Part shown: piece by piece, positions 1 through 64,000 of the stretch
Layout: each line of letters starts with the position of its first letter
How positions within the stretch are numbered: position 1 is the stretch's first letter
From: Sipunculus nudus
Taxonomy: Eukaryota > Annelida > Sipuncula > Golfingiida > Sipunculidae
DNA: 64,000 bases
Reading direction: 5' to 3'
NCBI GenBank assembly: GCA_026874595.1
Contig: CM049306.1
Span: 65,354,019 to 65,418,018 of the forward strand
The notes under the pieces: model-generated
The model's input: only the letters and a program-made list of their open reading frames with translations
Told to the model about the DNA's origin: nothing
The model's database searches: none
Made by a program: the position numbers and the translations under genes

Positions 1-685
1 TTAAAAGGACAAAAAGTAAGTTTCGAGATATTTTATTTTTTTATAATAAATATTTGATGTATAACTAAATTTAAACTTCTGCTGAATATGACAATGTCCC
101 CACGAGGAAAACGCATTAAATCTAGGTTCAGAAGCTGCAATCAATGTTGTGACACCGTCTATAGTTTTGGAGATATGGCACAATAATGATTACTGCAGCG
201 CCATCTGAAAGGAAAAAAAATAGTTTCAAGATATTTTATTTTTAATTATATATATTTTATGTATAATTAAACTTTAACCCCCGCGGAATACGACAGTCCC
301 CACGAGGTTAAACGCTTTAAATCTAGTTTCAGAAGCTGCAATCAATGTTGTGACACTGTCTATAGTTTTGGAGATATGGCACAATAATAATTGCTGCAGC
401 GCCATCTGAAAGGGAAAAAAAATAGTTTCGCGATATTTTAATTTTTATTATATATATTTTATGTATAATTAAAATTTAACCCCCACAGAATACGACAGAG
501 TCCAAACGAGGTTAAACGCATTAAATATAGTTTCAGAAGCTGCAATCAATGTTGTGACACTGTCTATAGTTTTGGAGATATGGCACAATAATGATTGCTG
601 CAGCGCCATCTGGGGGCTATTTTCTAAAAGGAAAAAAATAAATTTCCAGATATTTTATTTTAATATATATATTTGATGTATAATT
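1..685 (+). repeat. AT-unit tandem array (about 205 bp monomers)
   Basis: Three and a bit AT-rich monomers. Each runs through AAATCTAG, GCTGCAATCAATGTTGTGAC, TAGTTTTGGAGATATGGCA and then CAGCGCCATCTG. The last box recurs at about 191, 396 and 601, giving a period of 204-205 bp. The first two copies have lost the GGCGGC end of the CTCF-like core (they read CTGAAAGG), and the third reads CTGGGGGC. No coding potential is seen. Confidence 0.85.
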
Positions 686-1016
686 AAAATTTTACTCCTG
701 CCCCCAACTGCTTAACCAGGGATCAGCCCATATTTTGACACCCCCAACTACAAAATCGGGGATCCGTCCCTGGTTTCAAAGATTTGCCAGTGGTTCCTGG
801 CAACACAAGTGGCCGCACAAGGGGACACAATAAAAATCACAGGTGTGTTCCCTCCACATTTAGCGGCTTTTGTCCTCTATTCAATGCTGCTTTGTGAGAT
901 TCATGGACGACCGCGCACGCCAACATGCAACTGTAATAGCCTTGCCGGCACTTACCGGTCAACCCTGAAGCCACTTGTGCTCACGGCAATTGGATGTATT
1001 TTCATCATTTGATGAA
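686..1016 (+). repeat. S unit with a 67-codon ORF (809-1012)
   Basis: This is a dispersed module present four times in locus 1 (here, 10,886, 13,321, 18,275) and again in locus 2. It opens with an inverted repeat (AACCAGGGATC ... GATCCGTCCCTGGTT) and a small GCCAG/CTGGC hairpin. The ORF at 809-1012 uses an alternative start (GTG-type context, no ATG in the usual place because ATG has become ATA). The predicted peptide has a hydrophobic stretch followed by a Cys-containing segment (CEIHGRP, TCNCN). The reading frame is kept in three of four paralogues and broken in one. I recognise no family. It may be a chance ORF in a repeat, and no promoter, intron or polyadenylation context is evident. Confidence 0.6.
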
Positions 1017-2227
1017 AAACGAGGCAAGATTTGACGAGAATTGCAATAAAATCACTTGATGTGAATGAGAGTGTCAGACGCTGTCAAATGCTAAAAACTA
1101 TATGTCTGTAGGGTATAAAATGACAGCATAATAGGCATTTGTTTAAATGGTCCACTGTTCTCGTTTGACGAAAAATGGTGCGAGATATAACGAGATATTC
1201 ATTTCTATCACTTAACACTAATCAAATGATTTTTGAACAGTAGAAAAATAAAATCTCTAGCATAAAATTGAAAGAGATAAAGACATTTGTTGAATATTTT
1301 GTTCAAAATATCGAATATTCTCGTTTGGCGGTAGATGATGCGAGATTTTGCGAGATTTGCAGTTTTATCATGTTAAGCTTCCGAAAGGCTACCAGAGGCT
1401 GAAACCGTATACTCTTTAACCTAAAACGTGATCGAGTTATCAGCATTTCTGCGAAATCTCGTAATTTCTCGTTTGACGGAAAAACAGATCGAGATTCTAC
1501 GAGACTTCCAATTGACTGGATTGGAGCCAAAGGAATGCTACCTCATGCAGAAAACTAGACCCTTGAAGTATAAATATCAACAGAGATAGAAGCAAAAAAC
1601 TAATTATTTTCAGATTGTCAAGTTTTACCCCAAAATTTGGTTACCATGGTAACGGCAGCACAAAGCTACATGTACCCAGGAATAAGCCAATGATCCTAGT
1701 CTTAGATGCGACAAAAGAAATTGTTATATGCTTAATATTTTTTAAGATGTTGTGCAAAAATGATAAGTTGTAGTGTTACCAGTACCACGCCCCCTGGTGG
1801 CTTTTTTAAAAAAATGAAAAAACAATTTCGAGATATTTATAAATAACACAAAATACATTAATTTCAAAGCCATTGTTAATAAAATGCAACCTGCAGGTCA
1901 TATTTAATGAAATCTCGAAAACTCTCGTTTGACGAGAAATAGTGCGAGGTTTTGCGGGATTAACAATTCTATCATAAACAGCTCATGAAATACTACCTGA
2001 TGCAGAAAACTAGAACTCTCTAGCTTTAAAAATGAAAAATTTAGAAAGAAAATATCGAATTCTATCATTTCTTCCCAAAAATACGTTACTATGGTAACGA
2101 ATGATCAGAGATATTTGCTAGCATGTGGAAAGGTAACATGATGAGGAATAAAATGAGCTAAAGATTAAGCCGCTACGATTATTTTTTACAAAGATATGAA
2201 GGAAAATCCGTTTTAAGGTTTTTCAGG
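1017..2227 (+). repeat. X-unit series with X-box and CTCF-like core
   Basis: About 1.2 kb made of several dyad segments of the form CTCGTTTGACGA ... TGCGAGATTTGACGAG (around 1,160, 1,320, 1,450 and 1,925). A perfect palindrome GTTACCATGGTAAC lies at 1640-1653 and a CCACGCCCCCTGGTGGC core at 1785-1801. A second, weaker palindrome (GTTACTATGGTAAC) lies near 2,091. It ends at the tail beginning near 2,228. Short ORFs across it are not conserved between paralogues. Confidence 0.75.
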
Positions 2228-2232
2228 GACCC

Positions 2233-2250
2233 TGACCTTGACCTTGAACC
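2233..2250. promoter_or_regulatory. Nuclear-receptor half-site cluster
   Basis: Tandem TGACCT half-sites reading TGACCTTGACCTTGAACC. On the minus strand these are AGGTCA repeats containing TCAAGGTCA, the extended half-site of the SF-1/FTZ-F1/ERR type. The last half-site is degenerate (TGAACC). It is followed by an ACAATAGGCTCCGAGG box. Binding is not shown. Confidence 0.45.
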
Positions 2251-2354
2251 GATCATGACCCAAAACAATAGGCTCCGAGGAGAATTGATTTTACACTTAA
2301 TGTATAAGTTTCAGAGCGATTGGTGCAAAATTGTGGCCTGTAGAGTGGGGATAT

Positions 2355-2385
<31 letters not shown>

Positions 2386-2503
2386 AACATACGCGGGTGA
2401 TCAACATGCTTGCGAAAATCGAAGATTTCCGGCAAGCAACAAACAGACATCCGCGACTGACCAACCTGCTTGCAGAAATCGAAGATTTCCGGCAAGCAAT
2501 AAA
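2355..2503 (+). repeat. CAGA/CAAA microsatellite plus two hairpin minisatellite copies
   Basis: An (ACAG)n/(ACAA)n tract at 2355-2389 runs into two minisatellite copies. One is the ACGCGGGTGATCAACATG variant, the other the ATCCGCGACTGACCAACCTG variant. Each contains the hairpin CTTGC(A/C)GAAATC-GAA-GATTTCCGGCAAG. Translation of the tract on the minus strand gives a spurious SVCL-type periodic peptide. Confidence 0.85.
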
Positions 2504-2665
2504 GTTGTGACTGTGCCTCCCGGAGAGGCCGTCACGGACCGCTGCACACGCCGGCCGCCCACCGTAAGGACCCTGCCGCCACTTGCGGCGACTGCACGTG
2601 TCTTCGTGGTATGGCGAAAAACGGCGCGAGATTTGACGAGACTAACAATGTGACCCCTGAATGTG
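2504..2665 (+). repeat. G unit (GC-rich, CpG-rich, about 150 bp)
   Basis: Starts at CCCGGAGAGGCCGTCACGG and contains the short hairpin GCCGC-CACTT-GCGGC near 2,576. Compared with other G units it lacks about 25 bp (the ATGATCATAGATGGGG stretch) between GTGCCTCC and CGGAGAGG. Other G units lie at about 5,925, 22,147, 23,407 and 27,006, and their locus 2 equivalents at 31,566, 45,437 and 63,570. Confidence 0.75.
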
Positions 2666-3115
2666 ACTGCGAGTGTCAGCCGCTATCCAGCGCTGCAAAC
2701 CATGTGTCTTTAGCGTGAAAAATGACAGAATTATAGGCATTTCTTTGAATGGTCACGTGTTCTCGTTTGACAAGAAACGGTGCGAGATAAATTATGACAC
2801 TTGCGATTGAATGGCTTAGAACTAGAGGGATGCTGTCTAACGCCAAAAACCAGACCTTTCTATCGCAAATATCAACAGAGATAGAAGCTGGAAAACTCCG
2901 AATTTTCAGATTGTCAAGTTTTACCCCAAAATTTGGTAACCATGGTAACGGCAGCACAAAGCAACATGTGCGAAGGGATAAGCCAATGTTCCTAGTTTCA
3001 GATAAGACCCAAAAAATGGTGTCACGTTTAATATTTTTTGAGATATTGCAGAAAAATGATATGTTACGGTGTTTCATGTACCACGCCCCCTGGTGGCTAT
3101 TTCCAAAAAATGAAA
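2666..3115 (+). repeat. X unit following G unit
   Basis: Contains the stretch with CAACAGAGATAGAAGCTGGA, GGTAACCATGGTAACGG near 2,935 and the CTCF-like core CCACGCCCCCTGGTGGC at 3081-3097. A 113-codon ORF crosses it (2794-3135). Parallel ORFs exist in the paralogues near 6,216, 22,422, 23,722 and 27,271, but their starts, stops and lengths vary freely. I treat them as repeat ORFs. Confidence 0.7.
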
Positions 3116-3525
3116 AATCAGTTTCGGGATATTAGTGTAAGACATAAGATGTAATAGTTTTAAAAGATTCTTTCAAAACTGTGGCCTGTAGAATGCTATA
3201 TGTGAGACGCAAGAAACGGCAAGCAAGCGGATTTGAGGACAACTGAGAAACAGACGGACACACTGACAAAGTGACTCAAGATTGAGTCAAAATGATTCCA
3301 CCAGGATTTTGAAAAGACTCAGAGGAAGAAAATAAGCTATGGTTTATGTAATTGAGGCTTATAATTTTGGAGATATGGCCAAAACATGATATGTTGGAGA
3401 GGTTTGCACCCAGCGCCCCCTAGCGATCGAATTAAAAAAATGAAAAATTGATTTCGAGATAATAGTGTAGGACTTTCAATATGTCAGTTTCAAAAAGATT
3501 CCTGCAAAACTGTGGCCTCCAGGGC
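3116..3525 (+). repeat. R units (about 1.2 copies)
   Basis: A 330 bp R unit starting at TTTCGGGATATTAGTGTAAGAC, with GTGGCCTGTAGAATGCTATA and a degenerate CAGACGGACACACTGACA segment. It ends at a CAGCGCCCCCTAGCGATC core (3411-3428, slightly mutated from AGCGGCC). Confidence 0.7.
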
Positions 3526-3862
3526 AAGATTACTGAAATCTCGAAATATCTGGTTTGACGAGATATTGTACGAGATATCGCGAGAATTTTAATAAAATCT
3601 TGCAGTACTTGTTAAATGCTACCTGATGCAAAAAACTAGACCTCTCTAGCTTTAAAACTGACAAAGTTAGAAAAATAAGACCCCTTATTTCAGAATATCA
3701 TGACTTTTTCCCAAAAATTCGTAACCATGGTCACGGCAAATTTGAGTCAGCTACACACCAGATGACTGGCCTTGGAATGACGTTTAAAATGAGCTATGTT
3801 TGAAGAAGATCCGATTAATAGTGACAAAGATATGAAGAAAAAACCGTTTTGAGAACTTTTGA
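3526..3862 (+). repeat. X unit, short form
   Basis: Dyad ATCTGGTTTGACGAGATATTGTACGAG, the small palindrome CTAGACCTCTCTAG near 3,637, and AACCATGGTCACGG near 3,723 (a mutated X-box palindrome). It leads directly into the half-site cluster at 3,863. Confidence 0.65.
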
Positions 3863-4040
3863 TGACCTTGACCTTGACCTTTGACCTGTATTGCCCAAAA
3901 ACAATAGGCCCCGAGGACTTTTGCTTGTCTACCAGCTGTATAAGTTAAAAGGCAATTGCCTTAAAATTATGGCCTGTAGAGAGTACACAGACAGACAGAC
4001 AGACAGACAGACTAGATGACCTGAGGTCACACGCTTGCCG
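3863..4040 (+). repeat. Tail: half-site cluster, CAGA tract, hairpin end
   Basis: Four TGACC half-sites in 24 bp (3863-3886). The final pair TGACCTTTGACC is a DR1 arrangement (AGGTCA, one base, AGGTCA, on the minus strand). An AACAATAGGCCCCGAGGA box follows, then a CAGA tract at 3986-4012. The end is TGACCT-G-AGGTCA (4017-4029), an everted half-site pair where other tails have CGACC-AGA-GGTCG. Confidence 0.6.
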
Positions 4041-4171
4041 AAAATGATGTAAAGTTAAGTCAGATGAACGAGCAGTGTCAGAGTAAAGAAAATAATCCAT
4101 AGTTTGTGAAGAAAGAACCAATATTAACAAAGTTCTAAAGAGAATAAGATTTTGATATATTTTGATCACTT

Positions 4172-4188
4172 TGACCTTGACCTTTGAC
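4172..4188. promoter_or_regulatory. Half-site cluster without a CAGA tract
   Basis: TGACCTTGACCTTTGAC in an intermodule stretch (4,041-4,190). It directly precedes an R-unit array instead of an AACAATAGG box, so it looks like a tail whose downstream part was lost and fused to R DNA. Confidence 0.4.
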
Positions 4189-4189
4189 T

Positions 4190-5275
4190 TATTTGAATAA
4201 TAAACATAGGACTTCCAGATATCATCACGATATATGACAAGTGTAATTTACAAAACGATTCATGCAAAACTGTGGCCAGTAGAATGCTACATGTGAGACG
4301 CAAGAACCGGCAAGCTGGCGAAATTGAGGACAACTGACACACAGACAAACATACTGACTAACTGACCCACGATTGGGAACAGATGACTTAATCATGTTAT
4401 GAAGAAACCTCAGAGGAAGATAATAAGCTATAGTTTATGTAAATGAGGTTTATAGTTTTTGAGATATGGCCAAAAAATTATATGTTGTGCAAGTTTGAGT
4501 GCACCGCCCCCTAGCGGCCAATTCTGGAAAATGAAAATTCCGTTTCGAGATATTAGTGTAAGACATAAGATGTAATAGTTTTAAAAGGATTCTTTCAAAA
4601 CTGTGGCCTGTAGAATGCTATATGTGAGACGCAAGAACCGGCAAGCAAGCGGATTTGAGGACAACTGAGAAACAGACGGACACACAGACCAAGTGACTCA
4701 AGATTGAGACCAAATGAATACACCAGGTTTTTGGAAAGACCCAGAGGAAGAACATAAGCTATAGTTTATGTAAATGAGGTTTATAGTTTTAGAGATATGG
4801 CCAAAAAATGATATGTTGTGCAAGTTTGAGTGCACCGCCCCCTAGCGGCCAATTCTGGAAAATGAAAAATCGGTTTCGAGATATTAGTGTGAGACATAAG
4901 ATGTAATAGTTTTAAAAAGATTCTTTCAAAACTGTGTCCTGTAGAATGCTATATGTGAGACGCAAGAACCGGCAAGCAAGCGGATTTGAGGACAACTGAG
5001 AAACAGACGGACACACAGACAAAGTGACACAAGATTGAGACCAGATGACTAAACGAGTTCATGAAGAAGACTTAGATGAAAAAAATAAACTATAGTTTTT
5101 GTAATTGAGGCTTATAATTTTGGAGATATTGCCAAAACATGATATGTTGGAGAGGTTTGCACCCAGCGCCCCCTAGCGGCCGAATTAAAAAAATGAAAAA
5201 TTGATTTTGAGATAATGGTGTAGGACTTAAGATATGCCAGTTTCAAAAAGATTCCTGCAAAACTGTGGCCTCCAG
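4190..5275 (+). repeat. R-unit array (about 3.3 copies)
   Basis: Three tandem 330 bp units with CTCF-like cores at 4501-4519 (GCACCGCCCCCTAGCGGCC), 4832-4850 and 5164-5181, spaced 331-332 bp. In each, the phrase GAGATATGGCCAAAA or GAGATATTGCCAAAA precedes the core by about 40 bp, and GAAAAT plus a TTTCGAGATATTAGTG or close variant follows it. Confidence 0.85.
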
Positions 5276-5615
5276 GGCAAGATTACTGAAATCTCGAAAT
5301 ATCTCGTTTGACGAGATATTATACGAGATATTGCGAGACTCCTAATAGAATCTTGTAGTACTAGGTGAATGCTACCTGATGCAAAAAACTAGACCTCTCT
5401 AGCTGTAAAACTGCCAAAGTTAGAAAAATAAGGCCCCTTATTTTCGAATATCATGACTTTTTCCCAAAAATTCGTAACCATGGTTACGGCAAATTTGAGT
5501 CAGCTACACACCAGATGACTGGCCTTGGAATGATGTTTAAAATGAGCTTTGTTTGAAGAAGATACGACTAATAGTGACAAAGATATGAAGAAAAAACCGT
5601 TTTGAGAACTTTTGA
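5276..5615 (+). repeat. X unit, short form
   Basis: Contains the dyad ATCTCGTTTGACGAGATATT, the CTAGACCTCTCTAG palindrome and GTAACCATGGTTACGG near 5,475. It ends at the half-site cluster 5616-5639. Confidence 0.65.
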
Positions 5616-5886
5616 TGACCTTGACCTTGACCTTTGACCTGTATTGCCCAAAAACAATAGGCCCCGAGGACTTTTGCTTGTCTACCAGCTGTATAAGTTT
5701 AAAGACAATTGCTGCAAAATTGTGGCCTGTAGAGAGTACACAGACAGACAGACAAACAGACAAACAAACAGACATCCGCGACTGACCAACCTGCTTGCCG
5801 AAATCGAAGATTTCCGGCAAGCAACAAACAGACATCCGCGACTGACCAACCTGCTTGCAGAAATCGAAGATTTCCGGCAAGCAATA
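5616..5886 (+). repeat. Tail holding the D1/D2 junction
   Basis: Half-sites lie at 5616-5639, the CAGA/CAAA tract at 5739-5773 and two minisatellite copies at 5768-5884. Up to 5,760 the sequence follows 34,815. From 5,761 it follows 45,274. The junction therefore lies inside the tetranucleotide tract, with only about 2 bp (AC) shared by the two parental flanks. Confidence 0.85.
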
Positions 5887-5924
5887 AAGTATGGACTGTG
5901 CCTCCAACATGTATGATCATAGAT

Positions 5925-6070
5925 GGGGCCCGGAGAGGCCGTCACGGACCGCTGCACACGCCGGCCGCCCACCGTAAGGACCCTGCCGCCACTTGCGGCG
6001 ACGGCACGTGACTTCGTGGTTTGGTGAAACACGGCGCGAGATCTGACGAAACTTACATTGTGACCCCTGA
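5925..6070 (+). repeat. G unit
   Basis: Full-length form with ATGATCATAGATGGGG before CCCGGAGAGGCC, then the GCCGC-CACTT-GCGGC hairpin near 5,987. It abuts the minisatellite on its left and an X unit on its right, the same order as at 22,147, 23,407 and 27,006. Confidence 0.75.
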
Positions 6071-6914
6071 ATGTGACTGCGAGTGTCAGGCGCTACCCAG
6101 CGCTGCAAACCATGTGTCTGTAGCGTAAAAAAATGAATGGTCCCGTGTTCTCGTTTCACGAGAAACGGTGCGAGATATGACGCGACTTGCTATTGAATGA
6201 CCTAGAACTAAAGAAATGCTATCTAACGCCAAAAACCAGAGCGTTCTATCGCAAATATCGACAGAGATAGAAGCAGGAAAACTCCGTATTTTCAGATTGT
6301 CAAGTTTTACCCCAAAATTTGGTAACCATGGTAACGGCAGCACAAGGGTAAATGTACGAAGGAATAAGGCAATGATCCTAGTTTTAGATGCGACAAAAAA
6401 AATTGCTATATGCTTAATATTTTTTAAGATATTGCGGAAAAATGATAAGTTGTAGTGTTTCCAGTACCATGCCCCCTGGTGGCTATTTTCGAAAAATGAA
6501 AAAACAAGTTCGAGATAATACAGAACAACAGAAAATATGTCACTTTCAGAACCTCATCTGTAAAACTGCAACCTCTAAATCGTATTTAATGAAATCTCGA
6601 AAAAACTCATTTGACGACAAATGGCACGAGATTTTGCGAGACTTACATTAATTTCGCATAGAGCATATTAAATGCTACGCATTGCAAAAAACTAGACCTC
6701 TCTAACTTAAAAACTGAGAAATTTGCAGGGAAATTTTCGAATTTTCTGATTTTCCCCAAAAAATACGTTACCATGGTAACCATTGACCGGAAAAATTTGC
6801 CAGCACTTGGAAAGCTTACATAGTGAGGAATAAAATGAGCTACGGATTATGCGGCTACGCTTATTATTGACGAAGATATGAAGAAAATAAAGATTTTAGG
6901 TTTTTTGGTGACCC
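6071..6914 (+). repeat. X-unit pair
   Basis: The first part carries GGTAACCATGGTAACGG near 6,322 and a CTCF-like core CCATGCCCCCTGGTGGC (6467-6483). The second part carries the perfect GTTACCATGGTAAC palindrome (6767-6780). ORFs here are open by chance and shift between paralogues. Confidence 0.7.
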
Positions 6915-7171
6915 TGACCTTGACCTTTGACCGATCATGGCCAAAAACAATAGGCTCCGAGGAGAACAGATCTTACAGTTAATGTATAAGTTTCAGAGCG
7001 ATTGCTTAAAAACTGTGGCCTCTAGCGCGTGTACATACAGACAGACAGACAGACAAACAAACAAACAAACAAACAAACATACGCGGGTGATCAACATCCT
7101 TGCGAAAATCGAAGATTTCCGGCAAGCAACAAACAGACAAACTAGACGACCATAGGTCGAACGCTTGCCGG
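6915..7171 (+). repeat. Tail with long CAAA run and one minisatellite copy
   Basis: Half-sites TGACCTTGACCTTTGACC at 6915-6932. The microsatellite at 7037-7079 is mostly CAAA repeats. One hairpin minisatellite copy ends near 7,130, then the alternative end CGACC-ATA-GGTCG followed by AACGCTTGCCGGAA (to 7,171). Confidence 0.75.
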
Positions 7172-8580
7172 AAATCGGAAGTGAAACACAGACGGACAGA
7201 CAGAACATATTGTCGGTTTTCTATTAATGGAATGACTCTCAGGGACATTGCTGAGAATATGTGGCCCGTAGAATGACATATGAGACAAAAGAACAGGCAA
7301 GCAGACAAAGCTGACAACAAAAGACGAACAGACAGATATAGTGACTTAGTGAGACAAGATTGACACCAGATGACATAACCTAGTGATTGAGAAGATTCAA
7401 AGGAAGAAAATGAGTTATAATTTATGTAATTTAGATTTATAGTTTTGGAGGTATGGCGAATTAATGATATACTTGGGAGGCTCGACTGTAGCGCCCTCTA
7501 GCAGACATATTCCGAAGACGACAAATGCGTTTCGTATTATTAGTGTATGACATGAGATGTCCCAGTTTCAAAAGGATTCCGTCAAAGCTGTGGCCTGTAG
7601 AATGCTATATGTAAGGCGTAAGAACCAGCAAGCAGGCGACTTTGAGGATAACGGTCAAACAGATGGACACACTGACAAAGTGACAGAAGATTGAAACCAG
7701 ATGCCTTAATCAGGTTATGGAGAAGACTCAAAGGAAGAAAATAAGCAATAGTTTATGTAACTGAGGCTTTGGGTTTAGAGATATGGCCAATACAATGGTA
7801 TGTGTGTGAGGATCGTGTGCAGCGCCCACTAGTGGCCATATCCGGAAAATGAAAAATTTATTTCTAGATATTAGTGTAAGACATAAGATGTAATAGTTTC
7901 AAAAGGATTCCGTCAAAACTATGGCCTATAGAATGCTATATGTGAGACGCAAGAGCCAACAAGCAGGCGAATTTGAGGACAACTGACAAACAGACGAAAA
8001 CACTGACAAAGTGTCTCAAGATTGAGTCCAGATGACTACTCCAGGTTATGGAGAAGACTCAAAGGAAGAAAAACCTACAGTTTATGTAACTGAGGTTTAT
8101 AGTTTTGGAGATATTGCCAAAGCATGATATGTTGGGAGAGGTTCGGGTTCAGCGCCCCCTAGCGGCCATATCCGGAAAATGAACAATTGGTTTCGAGATA
8201 TTAGTGTAAGACTTAAGATGTAATAGTTTCAAAAGGATTCTTTCAAAACTGTGGCCTGTAGAATGCTATATGTGAGACTTAAGAGCAAGCAGGCGAATTT
8301 GAGGACAACTGACAAACAGACAGACACACTGACAAAGTGTCACAAAATTGTGACCAGATGACTACACTAGGTTATGGAGAAGACTCATAGGAAGAAAATA
8401 AGCTATAGTTTATGTAATTGAGGCTTATAATTTTTGAGATATGGCCAAAATATGATATGTTCGGGAGGTTCGCATCCAGGGCCCCCTAGCGGCCCTATTA
8501 AAAAAATGAAAAAACAATTTCGAGATACTAGTGTAGGACTTATAATATGTCAGTTTCAAAAAGATTCCTGCAATAATGTG
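7172..8580 (+). repeat. R-unit array (4 copies)
   Basis: Cores lie at 7489-7504 (TAGCGCCCTCTAGCAG), 7820-7837 (CAGCGCCCACTAGTGGCC), 8150-8167 (CAGCGCCCCCTAGCGGCC) and 8477-8494 (CAGGGCCCCCTAGCGGCC), spacing 327-331 bp. The same order of core variants (CCTCTAGCAG, CCACTAGTGG, CCCCTAGCGG, CCCCTAGCGG) recurs at 15,186-16,192, so it forms a higher-order unit of about 1.3-1.6 kb. Confidence 0.85.
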
Positions 8581-8787
8581 GCCTTTGGCGCAAGATGAAT
8601 GAAATCTCGAAATATCTCTATTCACGAGATATTTTACGAGATACTGCAAGACTTGTAATAAAATCTTGTAGTACTAGTTGAATGCTTCCTGATGCAAAAA
8701 ACTAGATCACTCTAGCTATAAAACTGACAAAGTTACAAAAATTAGGCCTTTTATTTTCGAAAATCATGAGTTTTCCCCAAAAATGTG
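8581..8787 (+). repeat. Truncated X unit
   Basis: Starts normally (ATCTCGAAATATCTCTATTCACGAG, ACTAGATCACTCTAG) but stops after CCCCAAAAATGTG at 8,787, where it is fused to GACAAACGGACAGACAG of the next R array. The X-box, half-sites and tail present in the intact paralogue at 10,040-10,334 are missing. Confidence 0.7.
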
Positions 8788-9845
8788 GACAAACGGACAG
8801 ACAGAACATATTGTCGGTTTTCTATTAATGGAATGACTCTCAGGGACATTGCTGAGAATATGTGGCCCGTAGAATGACATATGAGACAAAAGAACAGGCA
8901 AGCAGACAAAGCTGACAACAAAAGACGAACAGACAGACATACTGACTTTGTGAGACAAGATTGACACCAGATGACATAACCTGGTGATTGAGAAGATTCA
9001 AAGGAAGAAAATGATTTATGTAATTTAGATTTATAGTTTTGGAGGTATGGCGAATTAATGATATACTTGGGAGGCTCGACTGTAGCGCCCTCTAGCAGAC
9101 ATGTTCCCAAGACGACAAATGCGTTTCGTATTATTAGTGTATGACAAGAGATGTCCCAGTTTCAAAAGGATTCCGTCAAAGCTGTGGCCTGTAGAATGCT
9201 ATATGTAAGGCGTAAGAACCAGCAAGCAGGCGACTTTGAGGATAACGGACAAACAGATGGACACACTGACAAAGTGACAGAAGATTGAAACCATATGCTT
9301 TAATCAGGTTATGGAGAAGACTCAAAGGAAGAAAATAAGCGATAGCTTATGTAACTGAGGCTTTGGGTGTAGAGATATGGCCAATACAATGGTATGTGTG
9401 TGAGGGTCGTGTGCAGCGCCCACTAGTGGCCATATCAGGAAAATGAAAAATTCATTTTTAGAAATTAGTGTCAGACATAAGATGTAAAAGTTTCAAAAGG
9501 ATTCCGTCAAAACTGTGGCCTATAGAATGCTATATGTGAGACGCAAGAACCAACAAGCAGGCGAATTTGAGGCATTGACAAACAGACGAAAACACTGACA
9601 AAGTGACTCAAGATTGAGTCCAGATGACTACTCCAGGTTATGGAGAAGACCCAAAGGAAGAAAAAAGCTACAGTTTATGTAACTGAGGTTTATAATTTTG
9701 GAGATATGGCCAAAATATGATATGTTCGGGAGGTTCGCATCCAGCGCCCCCTAGCGGCCCTATTCAAAAAATGAAAAAACAATTTCGAGATACTAGTGTA
9801 GGACTTATAATATGTCAGTTTCAAAAAGATTCCTGCAATTATTTG
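8788..9845 (+). repeat. R-unit array (3 copies) with recombination window
   Basis: Cores at 9083-9098, 9414-9431 and 9742-9759. Between the second and third cores lies the switch at 9578-9606: left of it the sequence matches the diagnostic GAGGCATTGAC of 49,085, and right of it GTGACTCAAGATTGAGTCCAGATG of 51,031. Compared with locus 2 exactly 1,916 bp are absent here. Confidence 0.85.
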
Positions 9846-10192
9846 GCCTTATGCGCAAGATGAATGAAATCTCGAAATATCTCTATTCACGAGAAATTTT
9901 ACGAGATACTGCAAGACTTGTAATAAAATCTTGTAGTACTAGTTAAATGCCCCTTATGCAAAAAACTAGATCACTCTAGCTATAAAACTGACAAAGTTAC
10001 AAGAATTAGGCCTTTTATTTTCGAAAATCATGAGTTTTCCCCAAAAATGTGTAACCATAGAAACAGCAGATTTCAGCAACATATATATCAGAAGAAAGGC
10101 CTTGGAATGCCGATTAAAATGAGCCATGTTTGAAGTGGCTATGACAAATAGTAATGGAGATATGAAGAAAAGAGCACTTTAGGAACTTTTGA
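9846..10192 (+). repeat. X unit, short form
   Basis: ATCTCGAAATATCTCTATTCACGAG dyad, ACTAGATCACTCTAG, then GTAACCATAGAAACAGC (a degenerate X-box) near 10,051. It leads to the tail at 10,193. Confidence 0.6.
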
Positions 10193-10334
10193 TGACCTTG
10201 ACCTTGACCTTTGACCTATATTGCCCAAAAACAATAGGCTTCTTGCATTTTTGATTTTACACAAACTGTTAAAGTTTGAAAGCGATGGGATCAAAATTGC
10301 GACCTTTAGAGACTGGACAGACAAACAAACAGAC
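10193..10334 (+). repeat. Tail with short CAAA tract
   Basis: Four half-sites at 10193-10216, then AACAATAGGCTTCTTGCA in place of the usual GGCTCCGAGG, and a short GACAAACAAACAGAC tract (10317-10334) entering the CGACC/TTCGAACGCTTGCCGG end. Confidence 0.7.
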
Positions 10335-10665
10335 TAGACGACCAGAGTTCGAACGCTTGCCGGAAGCGGAAATAAGAAATTCAAACTAGGAGACAACATA
10401 CAGCAGGCAGGCAGTTTACATTTGGAACTGGTCAAATGAAGTACCCGAATAATGGCGTAAACAGAAGCACAATTTTGTGTAGTTATGCTGATTTTCAAAA
10501 GTCGCAGATGAGTAGACAGACAGACAGACAAGAAAAAACTCCATGTGAAGGCCATGTACTCCTGTCATAGAGAATGGAAAACAGTCTATTAGAATAAAAC
10601 TCCATATTTTGAATTTCAAGAATAAGAAGAATTTAATTGTAACGTATATTAGGTCACCATGGCAA
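10333..10665 (+). repeat. L unit (linker after tail)
   Basis: About 330 bp: CTAGACGACC, CGCTTGCCGGAAGCGG, GCTGATTTTCAAAAGTCGCA, a second CAGA tract (10,512-10,530), then CTCCATG ... CATAGAG, a broken version of the CTCCATG/CATGGAG hairpin seen at 12,770. It always joins a tail to an AT unit; other copies lie at 12,557, 16,780, 28,593 and, truncated, 34,816. Confidence 0.7.
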
Positions 10666-10885
10666 TGGAATAATATGAAAGAGTCCCCAGGAGGATAAAC
10701 GCAATAAATCTAGTATCAGATGCTGCAATCAATGTTGTGACAGTGTGTGTAGTTTTGGAGATATGGCACAATAATGATTGCTGCAGCGCCATCTGGCGGC
10801 TTATTTCTAAACGGAAAAAAATAAGTTTCGAAATATTTTATTTTTTATTATAAATATTTAATGTATAATTAAAATTAAACCCCTG
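10666..10885 (+). repeat. AT unit (single)
   Basis: One AT monomer with an intact CTCF-like core CAGCGCCATCTGGCGGC at 10784-10800. On the minus strand this reads GCCGCCAGATGGCGCTG, close to the AGRTGGCGC form described for insect CTCF. Confidence 0.75.
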
Positions 10886-31409: not shown

Positions 31410-31440
<31 letters not shown>

Positions 31441-36868: not shown

Positions 36869-36902
36869 CCCCCCCCCCCCAAAAAAAAAAAAAAAAAAAA
36901 AA
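36869..36902 (+). repeat. C12-A22 homopolymer junction
   Basis: Twelve C (36,869-36,880) directly followed by 22 A. This is prone to slippage and sequencing error, so exact lengths are uncertain. Confidence 0.9.
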
Positions 36903-54749: not shown

Positions 54750-55074
54750 ACCCCTGCCCCCCAACTGCTAAACCAGGGATCCGCCCCTATTTTGACACAC
54801 CCAACTACAAAATCTGGGATCCGTCCCTGGTTTGAAAGATTTGCCAGTGGTTCCTGGCAACACAAGTGGCCGCACAAGGGGACACAATGAAAATAACAGG
54901 TGTGTTCAATTCAAATTTAGCGGCTTTTGTCCTCTGTTCAATGCTGCTTTGTGAAATTCATGGACGACCGCGCACGCAAACTTGCAACTGTAATGGCCTT
55001 GCCGGCACTTACCGGTCAACCCTGAAGCCACTTGTGCTCACGGCAATTGGATTTATCTTCATCATTTGATAAAA
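54750..55074 (+). repeat. S unit copy with ORF 54866-55069
   Basis: Copy of 13,321-13,645, ORF unchanged. Confidence 0.55.
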
Positions 55075-58000
55075 AACGAGGCGAGATTTGACGGGAATTG
55101 CTATATAATCACATTATATGACTGAGAGTATCAGACGCTGTCACATGCTGAAAACTATATGTCTGTAGTGTAAAAAATGACAGCATTATAGGCATTTGTT
55201 TAAATGGTCCTCTGATTTCGTTTGACGACAAATGGTGCGAGATTTGACGAGATATTCACTTGTGTCACTTTAATCTCCTAAAAAATCCTAGAACAATAAA
55301 AACTAGACCCTTGTAGCATTAAAATAGCCGAGATACAGATATTTGTTTAAAATCTCGTAATTTTTCGTTTGACGATAAACTGAGCGAGATTTGACGAGAT
55401 TTGCAATTGAATGACTTAGAACAAAGGGAATGCTGCCTTATGCAAAAAACTTCACCCTTGTAGCATAAATATTAACAGAGATAAAAACCAAAAACATCAT
55501 GTTTTCAGATTGTCAAGTTTTACCCTAAAATTTGGTAACCATGGTAACGGCGGCACAAGCCTATATGTACAAAGGAATAAGGCAATGATCCTAGTTTAAG
55601 ATGCGACAAAAAAATTTGTTATATGCTTAATATTTTTTTAGATATTGCGGAAAAATGAAAAGTTGTAGTGTTCCCGGTACCACGCCCCCTGGTGGCTATT
55701 TTCGAAAAATGAAAAAATAAGTTCGAGATAATACAGAATAACAGAAAATAAGTCACTTTCAGAACCTTAGCTGTAAAACTGCAACCTCTAAATCGTATTT
55801 AATGAAATCTTGAAAAGTCTCATTTGACGACAAATGGCACGAGATTTTGCGAGACTTCCATTAATTTTCCATAGAGCATATTAAATGCTACACAATGCAA
55901 AAAACTAGACCTCTCTAACTGAAAAAATGAGAAATTTGGAGTGAAATTTTCGAATTTTCTGATTTTCCCCCAAAAAAAACGTTACCATGGTAACCATTGA
56001 CCGGAAAAATTTGCTAGCACTTGGAAAGCTAACATAAAGAGGAATAAAATGAGCTACAGATTATGCGGCTACGATTATTATTGACGAAGATATAAAGAAA
56101 ATAAAAATTTTAGGTTTTTCGGTGACACTGACCTTGACCTTTGACCGACCATGACAAAAAACAATAGGCTCCGAGGAGAACTGATCTTACACTATATCTA
56201 TAAGTTTCAGAGCGATTGGTGAAAAATTGTGGCCTGTAGAGCACAGACAGACAGACAAACAGACAAACAGACAAACTAGACGACCATAGGTCGAACGCTT
56301 GCCGGAAATCGGAAGTGAAACACAGACGGACAGACAGAACATATTGTCGGTTTTCTATTAATGGAATGACTCTCAGGGACATTGCTGAGAATATGTGGCC
56401 CGTAGAATGACATATGAGTCAAAAGAACAGGCAAGCAGACAAAGCTGACAACAAAAGACGAACAGACAGACATACTGACTTTGTGAGACAAGATTGACAC
56501 CAGATGACATAACCTGGTGATTGAGAAGATTCAAAGGAAGAAAATAATTTATGTAATTTAGATTTATAGTTTTGGAGGTATGGCGAATTAATGATATACT
56601 TGGGAGGCTGGACTGTAGCGCCCTCTAGCAGACATATTCCGAAGACGACAAATGCGTTTCGTATATTTAGTGTATGACATGAGATGTCCCAGTTTCAAAA
56701 GGATTCCGTCAAAGCTGTGGCCTGTAGAATGCTATATGTAAGGCGTAAGAACCAACAAGCAGGCGACTTTGAGGATAACGGACAAACAGATGGACACATT
56801 GACAAAGTGACAGAAGATTGAAACCATATGCCTTAATCAGGTTATGGAGAAGACTCAAAGGAAGAATATAAGCTATAGCTTATGTAACTGAGGCTTTGGG
56901 TGTAGAGATATGGCCAATACAATGGTATGTGTGTGAGGGTCATGTGCAGCGCCCACTAGTGGCCATATCAGGAAAATGAAAAATTGATTTCGAGATATTA
57001 GTGTAAGACTTAAGATGTTATAGTTTCAAAAGGATTCTTTCAAAACTGTGGCCTATAGAATGCTATATGTGAGACGCAAGAACCAACAAGCAGGCGAATT
57101 TGAGGACAACTGACAAACAGACGAAAACACTGACAAAGTGATTCAAGATTGAGTCCAGATGACTACTCCAGGTTATGGAGAAGACCCAAAGGAAGAAAAA
57201 AGCTACAGTTTATGTTACCGAGGTTTATAGTTTTGGAGATATTGCCAAAGCATAATATGTTGGGAGAGGTTCGAGTTCAGCGCCCCCTAGCGGCCATATC
57301 CGGAAAATGAAAAATTGTTTTCGAGATATTAGTGTAAGACTTAAGATGTTATAGTTTCAAAAGGATTCTTTCAAAACAGTGGCCTGTAGAATGCTATATG
57401 TGAGACGCAAGAGCAAGCAGGTGAATTTGAGGACAACTGACAAACAGACAGACACACTGACAAAGTGTCACAAAAGTGTGACCAGATGACTACACTAGGT
57501 TATGGAGAAGACTCAGAGGAAGAAAATAAGCTATAGTTTATGTAATTGAGGCTTTTAATTTTGGAGATATGGCCAAAATATGATATGTTCGGGAGGTTCG
57601 CATCCAGCGCCCCCTAGCGGCCCTATTCAAAAAATGAAAAAATCATTTCTAGATATTAGTGTAGGACTTATGATATGTCAGTTTCAAAATGATTCCTGCA
57701 ATAATGTGGCCTTTGGCGCAAGATGAATGAAATCTCGAAATATCTCTATTCACGAGATATTTTACGAGATACTGCAAGACTTGTAATAAAATCTTGTAAT
57801 ACTAGTTGAATGCTACGTGATGCAAAAAACTAGATCACTCTAGCTTTAAAACTGACAAAGTTAGAAAAATAAGACCCCTTATTTACGAATATCATGACTT
57901 TTCCCCCAAAATTTGTAACCATGGTTACGGCAAATTTGAGCCAGCTACACACCAGATGACAGGCCTTGGAATGACGATTAAAATGAGCTATTGTTGAAGT

Positions 58001-58782
58001 AGATACGACTATTAGTCACAAAGATATGAAGAAAAAACCGTTTTGAGAAGTTTTGATGACCTTGACCTTGACCTTTGACCTATTTTGACCAAAAACAATA
58101 GGGCACCTGGAAATTTATTTCTCCATAATCTCTGAAAATTTCAAGGTGATTGTGGCAAAATTGTGGCCAGGAGAGTGCAGACAAACAAACAAAAAGACAG
58201 ACAAACAGACTAGACGACCAGAGGTCGAACGCTTGCCGGAAGCGGAAATAAGAAAGTCAAACTAGTAGACAACATACAGCAGACAGTCAGGTTACATTTG
58301 GAACTGGTCAAATGAATTACCCCAATTATGGCTGAAACAGAAGCACAATTTTGTGTGGTTATGCTGATTTTCAAAAGTCGCAGATGAGTAGACAGACAAA
58401 CAGACAGGCAGACGGGAAAAAAAAATCCATGTGAAGGCCATGTACTCCTGTCATGGAGAATAGAAAACAGTCTATTAGAATAAAACTCCATATTTTGAAT
58501 TTCAAGAAAAAGAAGAATATAATTGTAACGTATATTAAGTCACCATTGTAATTGAAGAATATGACAGTGTCCCCACGAGGATAAACGCATTAATCTAGTT
58601 TCAGATGCTGCAATGAATGTTGTGACACTGTTTATGGTTTTAAAGATAACACATTATGGCACAATAATGATTGCTTCAGCCTCATCTAGCGGCTATTTTC
58701 TAAAAGGAAAAAAATAAGTTCCCAGATATTTTTTTTATTATATGTATTTGATGTATAATTATATTTAACCCCTGCAGAATAT

Positions 58783-59703
58783 GACTCTTTATGTTAGCTT
58801 TCCAAGTGCTAGCAAATTTTTCCGGTCAATGGTTACCATGGTAACGTATTTTTGGGGGGAAATCAGAAAATTCGAAAAATTCCCTCCAAATTTCTCATTT
58901 TTTAAGTTAGAGAGGTTTAGTTTTTTGCATTGTGTAGCATTTGATATGCTCTATGGAAAATTAATAGAAGTCTCGCAAAATCTCGTGCCATTTGTCGTCA
59001 AATGAGACTTTTCGAGATTTCATTAAATACGATTTAGAGGTGGCACTTTTACAGCTAAGGTTCTGAAAGTGACATATTTTCTGTTTTTCTGTATTATCTC
59101 GAACTTGTTTTTTTCATTTTTCGAAAAAAGCCACCAGGGGGCGTGGTACAGGAAACACTACAACTTTTCATTTTTCCGCAATATCTAAAAAAATATTAAG
59201 CATATAACATTTTTTTTTGTCGCATCCTAAACTAGGATCATTGGCTTATTCCTTTGTACATATAGGCTTGTGCCGCTTGTTACCAAATCTTAGGGTTAAA
59301 TTTGACAATCTGAAAACATGATGTTTTTGGCTTTTATCTCTGTTAATATTTATGCTACAAGGGTGAAGTTTTTTGTATAAGGCAGCATTCTCTTGGTTCC
59401 GTTTATCGTCAAACGAGAAATTACGAGATTTTAAACAAATATCTGTATCTCAGCTATTTTAATGCTACAAGGGTCTAGTTTTTATTGTTCTAGGATTTTT
59501 TAGTAGATCAAAGTGACACAAGTGAATATCTCGTCAAATCTCGCACCATTTGTCGTCAAACGAGAACAGAGGATCATTTAAACAAATGCCTATAATGCTG
59601 TCATTTTTTACACTACAGACATATAGTTTTCAGCATGTGACAGCGTCTGACACTCTCAGTCATATAATGTGATTATATAGCAATTCCCGTCAAATCTCGC
59701 CTG
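58783..59703 (-). repeat. Inverted X-unit segment, locus 2 copy
   Basis: Copy of 17,354-18,274, with GCCACCAGGGGGCGTGG at about 59,130. Its direct-orientation partner is 55,077-56,042. Confidence 0.85.
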
Positions 59704-60041
59704 TATAATTAAAATTTAACCCCTGCCCCCAAACTGCTAAACCATGGATCCGCCCATATTTTGACACACCCAACTTCAAAATCGGGGATCCGTCCCTGGT
59801 TTGAAAGATTTGCCAGTGGTAACTGGTAACACAAGTAGCCGCACAAGGGGACACAATGAAAATAACAGGTGTGTTCAATTCAAATGTAGCGGCTTTTGTC
59901 CTCTATTCAATGCTGCTTTGTGAAATTCATGGACGACCGCCCACGCCAACTTGCAACTGTAATGGCCTTGCCGGCACTTACCGGTCAACCCTGAAGCCAC
60001 TTCTGCTCACGGCAATTGGATGTATCTTCATCATTTGATAA
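59704..60041 (+). repeat. S unit copy with ORF 59856-60038
   Basis: Copy of 18,275-18,612, again interrupted by the foreign element. Confidence 0.6.
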
Positions 60042-61923
60042 ACAAGGGACCTATGGGTCACTGTGCTCAGCTGACGTTAACCTTGAAGGTGAAAATCTAA
60101 AATAATATCTAATGGAGATAAAGTGTAAGAGGTAATAAAGGCCATGGTTGGTTTATATGATTGGTTTGTATTGATGAGCAAGAAATTGTTGCAAAAAATA
60201 TTTTGTGACCTGACCATGTGTTTCCTAATGTTGAAACTAAAGCATGTGAGCAGTTTGTGAACAAATGACCTGTACTATTACCATGATCATTAGTTGGTTT
60301 TTCAATTAACTGTTGACATTTCAGTAGTTTACACATTTGTTCAATTGAATCTATTTTTTTGTATAATATATATTATTGAATATATATGTATTTTATTTAT
60401 GAAATGTATACAGTTGAAATATAGCTAATTAACAACATAAAACAGGGCAAACAAAGCCTGATCTCAAATTCTGCTGAGGCAGGAAAATAATGAAGAAATG
60501 TTTGTATTAAATCCTAATTTTTTTATCACATCAATTATTTTCTAATTTAAGTTTATATTTCTATACATTTCCAATTTAACATATATATCTGAATATAAAA
60601 GTTGATTCATAATTCTCAATTGCATCATCATAAATCTCGATCTTGTCAGATAACACCACATCATGCATACAAATGTTTATTTATTTTTTACCACAAAAAT
60701 ATATCTTTTAAATCTGCAAAACAATAAATATCTAAAAATAATACTTGATTTAGATTTCACAATTTTTAATTGTGTCTTTATTTATCCATAATGTACTTCA
60801 TATTTTATAATAATTAAAGCATACTGATGGGTTCCTTTATATTTGTTAAAATCATTTAAAAGAAAATTGATTTCTTTAAAAATGCTACATTACACAACAT
60901 TGCATCTTCTGGATTACACCTTGAATTATTTTTTCAAGGAAAGTTTTTGCATATCGGAGTGGAAACAGCATTACAATTAAGGAGATACAGTGAAAACAAT
61001 AACAATTACTGCATAACACTTGGTGGGTTGGGTTTTCTGGGGGGGGGGGTGATTGGGGTGTCGATATGAGAATAACTGTACACCTGTAACAGCACAGCAG
61101 GGGATCTCCCCCAGTGACTGTAACAAATCAGAAACCCTGGCATAGCTGACTTCCAGTGACCTGGAGTGGGACCCTGCATCTGTAATCAAAGCAAGTGACT
61201 ACAGAAAAAAAATCAATAACTATCTTAATTTTCAAGCTTTTATTTCCAAATTTCAGATTTAGACAAACTAAATATTTATGTTAACATGCTGTGAAAATTA
61301 AATCAATGGTGCTTACAGGAAAAAAACGTGCCATGGTCAAAGTTGGGCAAAATTTAAGGTACTGATTTTTTTTTATGCTAATAACTTAAAAAATTTACAA
61401 AATTCAGATCTAATTTTGGGTAAACAATTGAATCTTAATTAAACATAGTTATATACTTGAAAAAGTAGACTCTAGTTTCAAAATTTTTTATGTTAAGTGA
61501 GTTATTATTTTTCCTGATTTTTTACAAAGTCCAATATGTTTGGGCCCACAACTTAAAGAATTTATACTTTAGAGACTTAATTTCTGGCATGTACATAGGA
61601 ACTATATAGAGGAATATTTATGGTAAATATGAGGAAAAACAGATGAGTGGTTTTGATATGAGGCAGTCCTGAAGTGTGAAAATAGGATTTTAATAAAAAA
61701 TTGAGGTTTTTCCTTAATTTCTCAAAGGAACGAAGTCCCAAAGACCCAGTTTTCGGCTTGGTAGGAGATCTTGGGGACATCTAACATTATGGTGAATTTT
61801 GGATTCCTAGGTCTTACGGTTTCAAAACGTGCCACATCTACGGACGGACGGACGGACAGACGGACGGACGACGGACAATGGACCACGACTATAGCTCAGA
61901 TGACTTATAGTCAGCTGAGCTAA
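60042..61923 (+). mobile_element. Non-autonomous element, locus 2 copy
   Basis: Inverted repeats at 60065-60075 and 61910-61920. It differs from the locus 1 copy by two fewer G in the G run, one fewer ACGG unit and few substitutions (for example AAAAACAG versus AAAAATAG near 61,638). The insertion therefore predates the duplication. Confidence 0.75.
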
Positions 61924-63125
61924 AAACGAGGCGATATTTGACGAGAAATGCTATATAAACACATAATGTGACTGAAAGTGTGAGACGCTGTCACATGCTG
62001 AAAACTATATGTCTGTAGTGTAAAATATGACAGCATTATAGGCATTTGTTTAAATGGTCCCCTGTTCTCGTTTGACGACAGATGGTGCGAGATTTGACGA
62101 AATATTCACTTGTGTCACTTTAATCTACTTAAACATCCTGGAACAATAACAAACTAGACTCTTGTAGCATATAAATAGCCGAGATACAGATATTCGTTTA
62201 AAATCTCGAATTTCTCGTTTGGTGGGAGATGATGCGAGATTGGGCGAGATTTGCAATTCATTCATATTAAGCTCTAAAATAGCTACCAAATGCAGAAAAC
62301 AACTGCTCTTTAGCTTAAAAGGTGATCAGGTTATAAGCATTTCTGTGAAATCTCGTAATTTCTCGTTTGACGAAAAACCGAGCGAGATTTGACGAGATTT
62401 GCAACTGAATGACTTAGAACCAAGGGAATGTTGCCTTATGCAAAACACTTGACCCTTGTAGCATAAATATTTACAGAGATAAAAGCCAAAAACATCATGT
62501 TTTCAGATTGTCAAGTTTTACCCCAAAATTTGGTAACCATGGTAACCGCAGCACAAGGCTATATGTACGAAGGAATAAGGCAATGATCCTAGTTTAAGAT
62601 GCGACCAAAAAAATTGTTATATGCTTAATATTTTTTTAGATATTGCGGGAAAATGATAAGTTCTGGTGTTTCCAGTACCACGCCCCCTGGTGGCTTTTTT
62701 CGAAAAATGAAAAAACAAGTTTGAGATAATACAGAAAAACAGAAAATATGTCACTTTCAGAATCTTAGCTGTAAAACTGCCACCTCTAAATCGTATTTAA
62801 TAAAATCTCGAAAAGTCTCATTTGACGACAAATGGCACGAGATTTTGCGAGACTTGCATTAATTTTGCATAGAACCTATAAAACGCTACACAATGCAGAA
62901 AACTAGACCTCTCTATCTTAAAAAATGAGAAATTTGGAAGGAAATTTTCGAATTTTCTGATTTTCCCCCAAAAATACGTTACCATGGTAACCATTGACGG
63001 GGAAAATGTGCTAGCACTTGGAAAGCTAACATTAAGAGGAATAAAATGAGCTACAGATTATGCGGCTGCGATTATTATTGACGAAGATATGAAGAAAATA
63101 AAGATTTTAGGTTTTTTGGTGACAC

Positions 63126-63531
63126 TGACCTTGACCTTTGACCGATCATGACCAAAAACAATAGGCTCCGAGGAGAAAAGATCTTACACTTAGTGCATAA
63201 GTTTCAGAGCGATTGCTTAAAAACTGTGGCCTGTAGCGCGTGTACATACAGACAAACAAACAGACAGACAGACAGACAAACAAACAAACAAACAAACATA
63301 CGCGGGTGATCAACATGCTTGCGAAAATCGAAGATTTCCGGCAAGCAACAAACAAACAAACATACGGAACTGACCAACATACTTGCCGAAATCTTTGATT
63401 CCGGCAAGTAACAAACAAACATACGGAACTGACCAACATACTTGCGAAAATCGAAGATTTCCGGCAAGTAACAAACAGACATCCGCGACTGACCAACCAG
63501 CTTGCGAAAATCGAACATTCCGGCAAGCAAT
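63126..63531 (+). repeat. Tail with four minisatellite copies, locus 2
   Basis: Copy of 21,703-22,108 with no copy-number change, although such arrays are usually unstable. This supports a very recent duplication or allelic origin. Confidence 0.85.
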
Positions 63532-64000
63532 AAAGTTGTGACTGTGCCTCCAACATGTATGATCATAGATGGGGCCCGGAGAGGCCGTCACGCACCGCTG
63601 CACACGCCGGCCGCCCACCGTAAGGACCCTGCCGGCACTTGCGGCGACGGCACGTGACTTCGCGGTTTGGTGAAACACGGCGCGAGATTTGACGAGACTT
63701 ACAATGCGACCCCTGAATGTGACTGCGAGTGTCAGCCGCTATCCGGCGCTGCAAGCCATGTGTCTGTAGCGTAAAAAATGACAGAATTATAGGCATTTCT
63801 TTGAATGGTCACGTGTTCTCGTTTCACGAGAAACGGCGCGAGATATGACGAGACTTGCAATTGAACGGCTTAGAACTAGAGGGATGCTGTCTAACGCCAA
63901 AAACCCGACCTTTCTATCGCAAATATCAACAGAGATAGAAGCTGGAAAACTCCGAATTTTCAGATTGTCAAGTTTTACCCCAAAATTTGGTAACCATGGT

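Follow-up and report, generated by a model that had tools for sequence, protein, structure and literature searches.

The closest described relatives of the sequences analysed here are Helentron-type non-autonomous elements (HINEs). Passages on Cg_HINE of the Pacific oyster describe a 5' subterminal inverted repeat (subTIR), an inverted repeat (IR) and a microsatellite, then central repeats, then a 3' subTIR and a palindrome, with insertion into T-rich sequence (PMC7492417). HINEs with satellite-like repeats are already known, and so is the spread of CTCF sites by mobile elements. Here we describe a 64,000-nucleotide stretch of the Sipunculus nudus genome (assembly GCA_026874595.1, contig CM049306.1, positions 65,354,019 to 65,418,018 of the forward strand), referred to below as the window. 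Most of it consists of HINEs nested in one another and duplicated, nearly all of them in one orientation. We give a probability of roughly 0.6 to the reading that these elements hold a CTCF-type site in each central unit, and that same-strand nesting and duplication have built their one-way arrays.

The modules in which the CTCF-type cores lie are the central repeats of HINEs. The 14-bp subTIRs of the elements, GCTTGCCGGAAATC and GATTTCCGGCAAGC, match at 14 of 14 positions and fall within the 11-15 bp range of HINEs. At the 5' end there is a hairpin, GCTTGCAGAAATCGAAGATTTCCGGCAAGC, which is the complementary IR (-15.7 kcal/mol for the 39-base stretch, RNA parameters), and an ACAG/ACAA microsatellite adjoins it. 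The palindrome beyond the 3' subTIR reads CGACC-ATA-GGTCG, or TGACC-TGA-GGTCA in a second subfamily. In the dispersed copies examined elsewhere in the genome (L079-L084) the left end is sharply defined and common to all: CTAGACGACCATAGGTC(G or A)AACGCTTGCC. The other end, as found in the window, is a microsatellite followed by the hairpin with GATTTCCGGCAAGC, the exact 14-base inverse of the left end. The CTCF motif lies on the sense strand of the element. Including duplicates, the window has 15 left ends; a weak sixteenth at 36,603 was set aside. The overall arrangement and the clearest ends are as follows.

1-64000, minus strand: nested and duplicated HINEs, with CTCF-type cores on the element sense strand (= minus).
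2410-2499, minus strand: two successive 5' ends (subTIR GATTTCCGGCAAGC plus complementary IR) after an ACAG microsatellite at 2355-2389.
7142-7176, minus strand: element 3' end, reading CTAGACGACCATAGGTCG + AACGCTTGCCGGAAATC on the plus strand, with a CTAG terminus, a palindrome with a 5-bp stem and the 14-bp subTIR; the sequence shared by L079-L084 also begins with this end.
14846-14880, minus strand: element 3' end, adjoined by the same-strand ACAR microsatellite of another element.
16780-16814, minus strand: element 3' end that meets the microsatellite of the element before it (HINE in HINE).
28267-28337, minus strand: junction of two elements, a right end (hairpin GCTTGCAGAAATCGAAGATTTCCGGCAAGC) and within a few bases a left end, CTAGACGACC, at 28303.

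L081, one of the dispersed copies, stands alone and is complete: its 1,962 bp include both ends and, between them, four central units in one orientation. Its cores score 22.0, 22.3, 26.0 and 24.1 bits by the CTCF matrix introduced below and all face the same way; one weak opposite match (13.2 bits) lies outside the units. L081-L083 show a mutual identity of 95.9-98.1% (96-97% for L081 against L082 and L083). To the left of each of L080-L083 lies A-rich DNA unrelated to that of the others. On the right, L082 and L083 have similar flanks (88%), and L079 and L084 have repeats in their flanks that others share. At 540-612 of L079 a different hairpin (ATAGTCGCCAG...CTGGCGACTAT) stands immediately before the left end of the element and is possibly the end of another mobile element. 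At least 143 Helitron_like_N matches were found in the genome (150 of 195 candidates scored), some of them in open frames of more than 2,000 aa, and an autonomous Helentron partner is therefore plausible as judged from these domains.

A first-pass annotation of the window described three different module types (AT, R and X units), each ending in a variant of one core. The three cores exist as written and are far above chance: with up to 3 mismatches they have 29, 36 and 20 matches (overlapping sets) where 0.04, 0.01 and 0.04 are expected. The modules themselves are to be read otherwise, as diverged members of one family. The core is internal, with homologous sequence on both sides. An A-box, AGTTTTGGAGATATGGC, lies upstream of the cores and a B-box, TTTCGAGATATT, about 41 bases downstream, and this context recurs around the cores. 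Models of the flanks with the core left out link AT, R, X, D1 and D2, the AT downstream flank being linked weakly (best E 0.39 with the R model, 0.11 with the X model and 0.011 in the reverse test). In the window these flank-only models find 76 units, all with a core or a core remnant (4 are half cores, and the core at 17,248 and its copy are mutated), although they were trained on core-bearing units, which favours finding such units. For another 11 downstream-flank matches (E <0.1) the upstream flank is missing: the window start truncates one of these units, and others resemble the shared S module. Central units have periods of about 202-331 bp. GAGATAT boxes form direct repeats flanking many cores (at about -42 or -26 and at +45), and their rate of change is about as low as that of the core.

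Convergence of unrelated modules on one core was rejected because the flank-only models tie the module types together. A protein-coding explanation was rejected as well, the 8 stop-to-stop frames having no Pfam match over the cut-off (one lies below it, at 15 vs 22 bits), and so was an RNA explanation, with no Rfam family at gathering score and no tRNA. Exact unit patterns had no match in collections of viral contigs or prokaryote genomes, and window positions 4252-5271 had none in a phage collection.

The resemblance of the cores to CTCF sites is strong and specific, as matches to a matrix, a consensus and published motifs all exceed their controls. The matrix was a version of JASPAR MA0139.1, a vertebrate matrix. 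By this matrix the window has 61 sites above 16 bits (59 on the minus strand and 2 on the plus strand), and most cores score 19-26 bits. Forty dinucleotide-preserving shuffles averaged 0.275 such sites, and no shuffle had more than 1. The consensus given in the first-pass annotation is matched with at most 1 mismatch 57 times on the minus strand and twice on the plus strand; among 200 column-permuted consensuses the maximum was 21, and none equalled the real total. The R cores share 12 bases with the CTCF motif of the chicken beta-globin insulator (24 occurrences in the window) and the X cores 13 bases with a human immunoglobulin heavy chain (IgH) CTCF consensus (13 occurrences), and 35 of these 37 exact matches are on the minus strand. 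The YY1 motif would fit the AT cores only and not R or X. Examples of the cores are listed here.

196-410, minus strand: two AT units, one core half lost (CAGCGCCATCTGAAAGG); they recur at 29251 and 29452.
4502-5182, minus strand: R cores at 4502, 4833 and 5164, scoring 25.3, 25.3 and 25.9 bits.
8150-8168, minus strand: R core of 25.9 bits, which holds CCGCTAGGGGGC as in the beta-globin 5'HS4 FII CTCF motif.
13013-13244, minus strand: AT cores at 13013 and 13226, scoring 22.4 and 20.0 bits, with a spacing of 213 bp.
15027-16282, minus strand: R array with a period of 331 bp and 3.8 copies, with cores at 15186, 15517, 15848 and 16175.
22712-22730, minus strand: X core of 21.8 bits, which holds CCACCAGGGGGCG, also present in the human IgH CTCF consensus.

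The estimate of about 35 cores in locus 1 was close. We count 36, made up of 33 matrix hits above 12 bits in 1-28,500, the mutated core at 17,248 and the half cores at 196 and 397. The same core half is deleted in AT units at 196, 397, 29251 and 29452 and at C1:63.36 Mb and C1:65.14 Mb (C1 is one of the contigs of the genome), and these units are a natural loss-of-site control.

The 61 sites are not 61 independent events because three segments of the window are recent duplicates, 99.1-99.9% identical. The only reversed core of locus 1, recognised as such in the first-pass annotation, has its explanation in an inverted copy, and it is itself duplicated.

29056-34816, minus strand: copy of 1-5761, 99.9% identical.
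45273-49363, minus strand: copy of 5760-9849, 99.1% identical.
50215-64000, minus strand: copy of 8789-22577, 99.6% identical.
17356-18273, plus strand: inverted copy of 13,650-14,611 (91.4% over 963 columns), with the sole opposite-facing core of locus 1 at 17,699-17,717; this core (at 17,701) is duplicated at 59,130.

Inside the array and again in its copy there is a core-free, CpG-poor, partly AT-rich interval (18.5-20.0 and 60.0-61.5 kb). Part of the window is not HINE. An example is a satellite of 364 bp at 37,084-40,332 with 8.9 copies, in which CpG observed/expected is 0.00-0.05 and TpG+CpA are in excess at 1.35-1.48, with CpG-rich stretches on either side. The near absence of CpG together with this excess makes the satellite look long methylated.

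The arrangement of the window recurs throughout the genome of 1.43 Gb. The same-strand junction of an element end and a microsatellite, ACARACARACTAGACGACC, occurs 1,322 times genome-wide, and the opposite-strand junction occurs 0 times, with a pattern made more permissive by a gap. From the window and the fetched loci, most of which were chosen by their cores, 47 distinct left ends were collected with a stricter pattern and with duplicate contexts dropped. A same-strand ACAR microsatellite adjoins 26 of these, the right end of another element 6, A-rich DNA 14 and something else 1; none of the 47 adjoins an opposite-strand microsatellite. By these crude rules 46 of the 47 adjoin A-rich DNA, ACAR or another element's end, all T-rich on the sense strand. 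L081 and other solo copies have no microsatellite outside the left end, so the microsatellite is not part of the element there. The common orientation is primarily a consequence of how the elements nest and duplicate, and by itself it is no evidence of a selected boundary.

Strand use is nearly balanced over the genome as a whole. Strict cores number 2,423 + 2,515 = 4,938 on the two strands, A-boxes with a core 1,548 + 1,459, and strict element ends 757 + 663 = 1,420; the control of each search gave 0. Of 30 strict cores with loci, 26 are inside paired units and 4 are not. The upstream R flank without the core has copies at least 98% identical on C1-C12 (40 scored of 1,259 candidates). Orientation is shared locally: among the first 100 strict cores listed, close neighbours agree in 48 of 50 cases vs 28 of 49 across clusters, and for 67 AT cores listed on C1 agreement is 51 of 51 and 8 of 15, respectively. 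All 24 of the fetched segments are of a single orientation. The array in the window is one of many in the genome and not a unique locus.

Element blocks of alternating orientation, up to about 1 Mb long, surround the window (C1:64.54-66.72 Mb). The strict ends listed on C1 include a run of 32 on the plus strand over 64.538-65.687 Mb (1.15 Mb, the longest block, with the window inside), then 23 on the minus strand over 65.971-66.582 Mb (0.61 Mb) and 9 on the plus strand over 66.655-66.717 Mb, one plus and one minus end lying between the last two blocks. Among the listed same-strand junctions, one end at 65.255 Mb interrupts the first block.

Because of the three recent duplications in the window, the evolution of the core was followed in 36 full units outside the duplicated segments, with two truncated AT units excluded. 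Of 210 windows, each 18 columns wide, the core changes least (30 changes; 32 in the A-box), and its changes track the information in the matrix (rho -0.53, p 0.018). Neutral simulations on the flank tree, run 500 times from each of three ancestors, never matched the real count of good sites or mean score at the full rate or at half of it. When the number of changes was matched, 5 of 997, 0 of 966, 12 of 971 and 0 of 959 runs attained the observed mean score. An independent sample comes from 104.6 kb of C1 loci, in which 132 paired units were found, 49 overlapping search matches and 83 bystanders. Of the bystanders, 64 reach 16 bits, 8 score 12-16 and 11 fall below (8 of these 11 are half-core AT types). 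Three of the 83 are cut by locus ends, and dropping exact duplicates leaves 76 distinct units, with 3.1 changes per column in the core vs 4.7 in the flanks. When changes were split by branch in 102 units (10 of 112 with gapped cores were omitted), 22 deep changes cost a mean of 0.58 bit vs 3.84 for random changes, and 0 of 5,000 draws were as mild. The claim that flanks vary more than the core is borne out for the flanks overall; it fails for the A-box, and in dispersed units for the B-box, which are about as slow as the core. The comparison of core and flank substitution rates proposed with it shows clear constraint on the core between subfamilies and weak constraint in dispersed copies. This pattern may reflect constraint in propagating lineages and decay in dispersed copies.

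The genome encodes a CTCF-like protein with 11 fingers. The best match to the human CTCF fingers lies on C11 (L069, G000:C11:67,037,824-67,038,510), with 54% identity over query residues 1-226; 150 of 1,998 candidates were scored and the next listed match has 40% identity. The open frame is 989 aa long, and the portion read shows 11 C2H2 fingers. Compared by eye with human CTCF, the helix residues of fingers 4 and 5 are kept and those of finger 7 largely. Finger 3 also seems kept against the human letters. Clustered C2H2 zinc-finger open frames on C16, C7, C11, C9 and C6, with at least 439 matches to the CTCF finger query, are perhaps an expanded zinc-finger family. Within 1 kb of the cores CpG observed/expected is 0.67-1.18, vs about 0.00 in the 364-bp satellite (37.1-40.3 kb).

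Several results weigh against our reading of the cores as CTCF sites kept for their binding. In L069 the helix of finger 6 is changed, and identity to human CTCF over the compared fingers is only 54%. CpG observed/expected is high (0.68-1.25) at 35-37 kb too, where there are no cores. When neutral simulations run at one-third of the flank rate, as many as 7 in 500 attain the observed mean score. In the 76 bystander units the core ranks only second in slowness, behind the B-box (56 vs 55 changes), and the link with matrix information is gone (rho -0.14, p 0.57). Shallow internal changes, ten in number, lose 2.0 bits (P 0.023); on terminal branches the mean loss over 37 changes is 3.05 bits, close to random (P 0.049). 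By hand count, C-to-T or G-to-A at the two consensus CpGs makes up 16 of the terminal changes, which hints at methylation. The ratio of core to flank rate, 0.56 on deep and 0.81 on terminal branches, does not differ significantly (Fisher p 0.22). Since the A- and B-boxes are slow too, slowness is not special to the CTCF core. Part of this would be expected if the core were a transposon-internal box, serving replication, recombination or the element's own transcription through another factor, with CTCF absent or the site methylated and silent, so that the likeness to CTCF sites is inconsequential. Boxes without CTCF likeness evolve about equally slowly, and dispersed copies decay near-randomly and often at CpGs, as this explanation has it. 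We consider it unlikely, if worth serious attention, given the high scores of most cores, the 12-13 exact bases that R and X cores share with published CTCF motifs, and deep changes that avoid harming the match.

The orientation of the arrays has two further explanations. The same-strand junctions could all derive from a few founder arrays that were duplicated in tandem or as segments, with no oriented insertion; the 99% duplicates in the window and the dense occurrence of the listed junctions in few regions agree with this. Junctions are nevertheless also scattered over C1 with varied microsatellite lengths and flanks, L081 stands alone, and the A-rich DNA to the left of L080, L082 and L083 is unrelated among the three, so that duplication as the sole source is improbable. 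The junction rule could partly stem from head-to-tail duplication all the same; it was examined for one end type (CTAGACGACC), and a reversed control of the opposite-strand pattern gave 1 match. A selected macrosatellite similar to DXZ4 is the other explanation, in which the C1 locus is maintained as a one-sided boundary and duplication is favoured for its CTCF sites. The window does have tandem CTCF motifs of common polarity, its density of strict cores is 328 per Mb vs 3.5 per Mb in the genome, and the long blocks of one orientation on C1, 1.15 Mb and then 0.61 Mb reversed, are in keeping with it. Yet thousands of units are dispersed, small one-way clusters occur elsewhere on C1, as the agreement of close neighbours and the fetched segments indicate, and the mechanics of nesting suffice for the orientation. 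We regard selection of this locus as a boundary as quite improbable.

The self-nested HINE cluster with a CTCF-type site per central unit is thus preferred, and the following mechanism would account for it. The central tandem repeats carry one CTCF-type site per unit on the element sense strand. A new copy would settle in an older one at its T-rich (GTCT/GTTT) microsatellite, taking the same strand, the junctions having presumably arisen by insertion, and local duplication would multiply the nested copies. Arrays would therefore grow with their sites facing one way. Host CTCF probably binds at least some sites. Selection may have kept the sites in active source lineages, for example through open chromatin or shielding of the element, and dispersed copies would decay. 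Where unmethylated, dense arrays might act as one-sided cohesin barriers; as far as sequence can tell, a boundary function of the arrays is plausible but unproven. The first-pass reading of the array as a one-directional boundary or a CTCF sink, if bound, is supported in part. A bolder version, which we hold to be doubtful, is that a Helentron family took the CTCF site into its own propagation strategy and, by one-strand insertion into its own microsatellite, builds self-organising one-way arrays of up to about a megabase that are directional cohesin barriers and reshape chromosome folding.

These elements bear on whether non-insect invertebrates use oriented CTCF sites for loop extrusion. In squid, according to passages of a 2023 review, the directionality of the motif had not been identified, which stopped the inference (PMC10658182). 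Thousands of candidate loop-stop sites, each one-directional, may owe their place in this invertebrate genome to a transposon. The arrays offer a natural series of one-way CTCF-type sites within one genome, from 2 sites up to blocks spread over about a megabase, some of them reversed. Strand-locked nesting is a simple physical reason for same-facing arrays without selection. If the bolder version is true, this would be a transposon-made, orientation-locked boundary factory in an invertebrate.

The comparison with known systems places the elements among HINEs and sets their sites apart. According to the relevant passages, Cg_HINE and the bivalve Pearl elements share with them a subTIR, a complementary IR and a tetranucleotide (GTCY-type) microsatellite at one end, fixed-orientation satellite-like central repeats, a subTIR and palindrome at the other end, and apparently a T-rich preference (PMC7492417). 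The central units here differ in their periods of about 202-331 bp and in their CTCF-type core; the main text of that paper does not mention CTCF, and its passages on Cg_HINE contain no same-strand nesting in the microsatellite (PMC7492417). DINE-1/HINE elements of Drosophila and mites are alike in subTIRs, IR, 3' stem-loop, microsatellite, central repeats, lack of coding capacity and apparently the TT target, and the passages describing them are without CTCF-type sites, unlike the elements here (PMC4067079). Mammalian retroelements also spread CTCF sites on mobile repeats, in lineage-specific waves; in the parts consulted those are retrotransposons with proven binding, whereas here a rolling-circle DNA transposon carries candidate sites in one-way mini-arrays (PMC3368268). 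DXZ4/Dxz4 is described with tandem CTCF motifs of common polarity that are more conserved than the rest of the repeat, but it is one X-linked locus with proven CTCF binding, and here there are thousands of dispersed units with candidate sites (PMC3491370, PMC6985041, PMC5899087; relevant passages). The IgH variable region, in the passages concerned, has more than 100 predicted CTCF motifs of one orientation in its V domains, and the R and X cores match the reference motif CCGCTAGGGGGCAG and the human consensus ACCACCAGGGGGCG given there (PMC6746451). The IgH sites lie among V gene segments and 111 of 144 predicted sites are occupied in vivo, in contrast to the candidate sites here (PMC6746451). 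Among the top-ranked open-licence literature we found no published HINE with CTCF-type sites in its central repeats. By its sequence, this Helentron family with candidate CTCF-type sites is a real new variant of the known HINEs.

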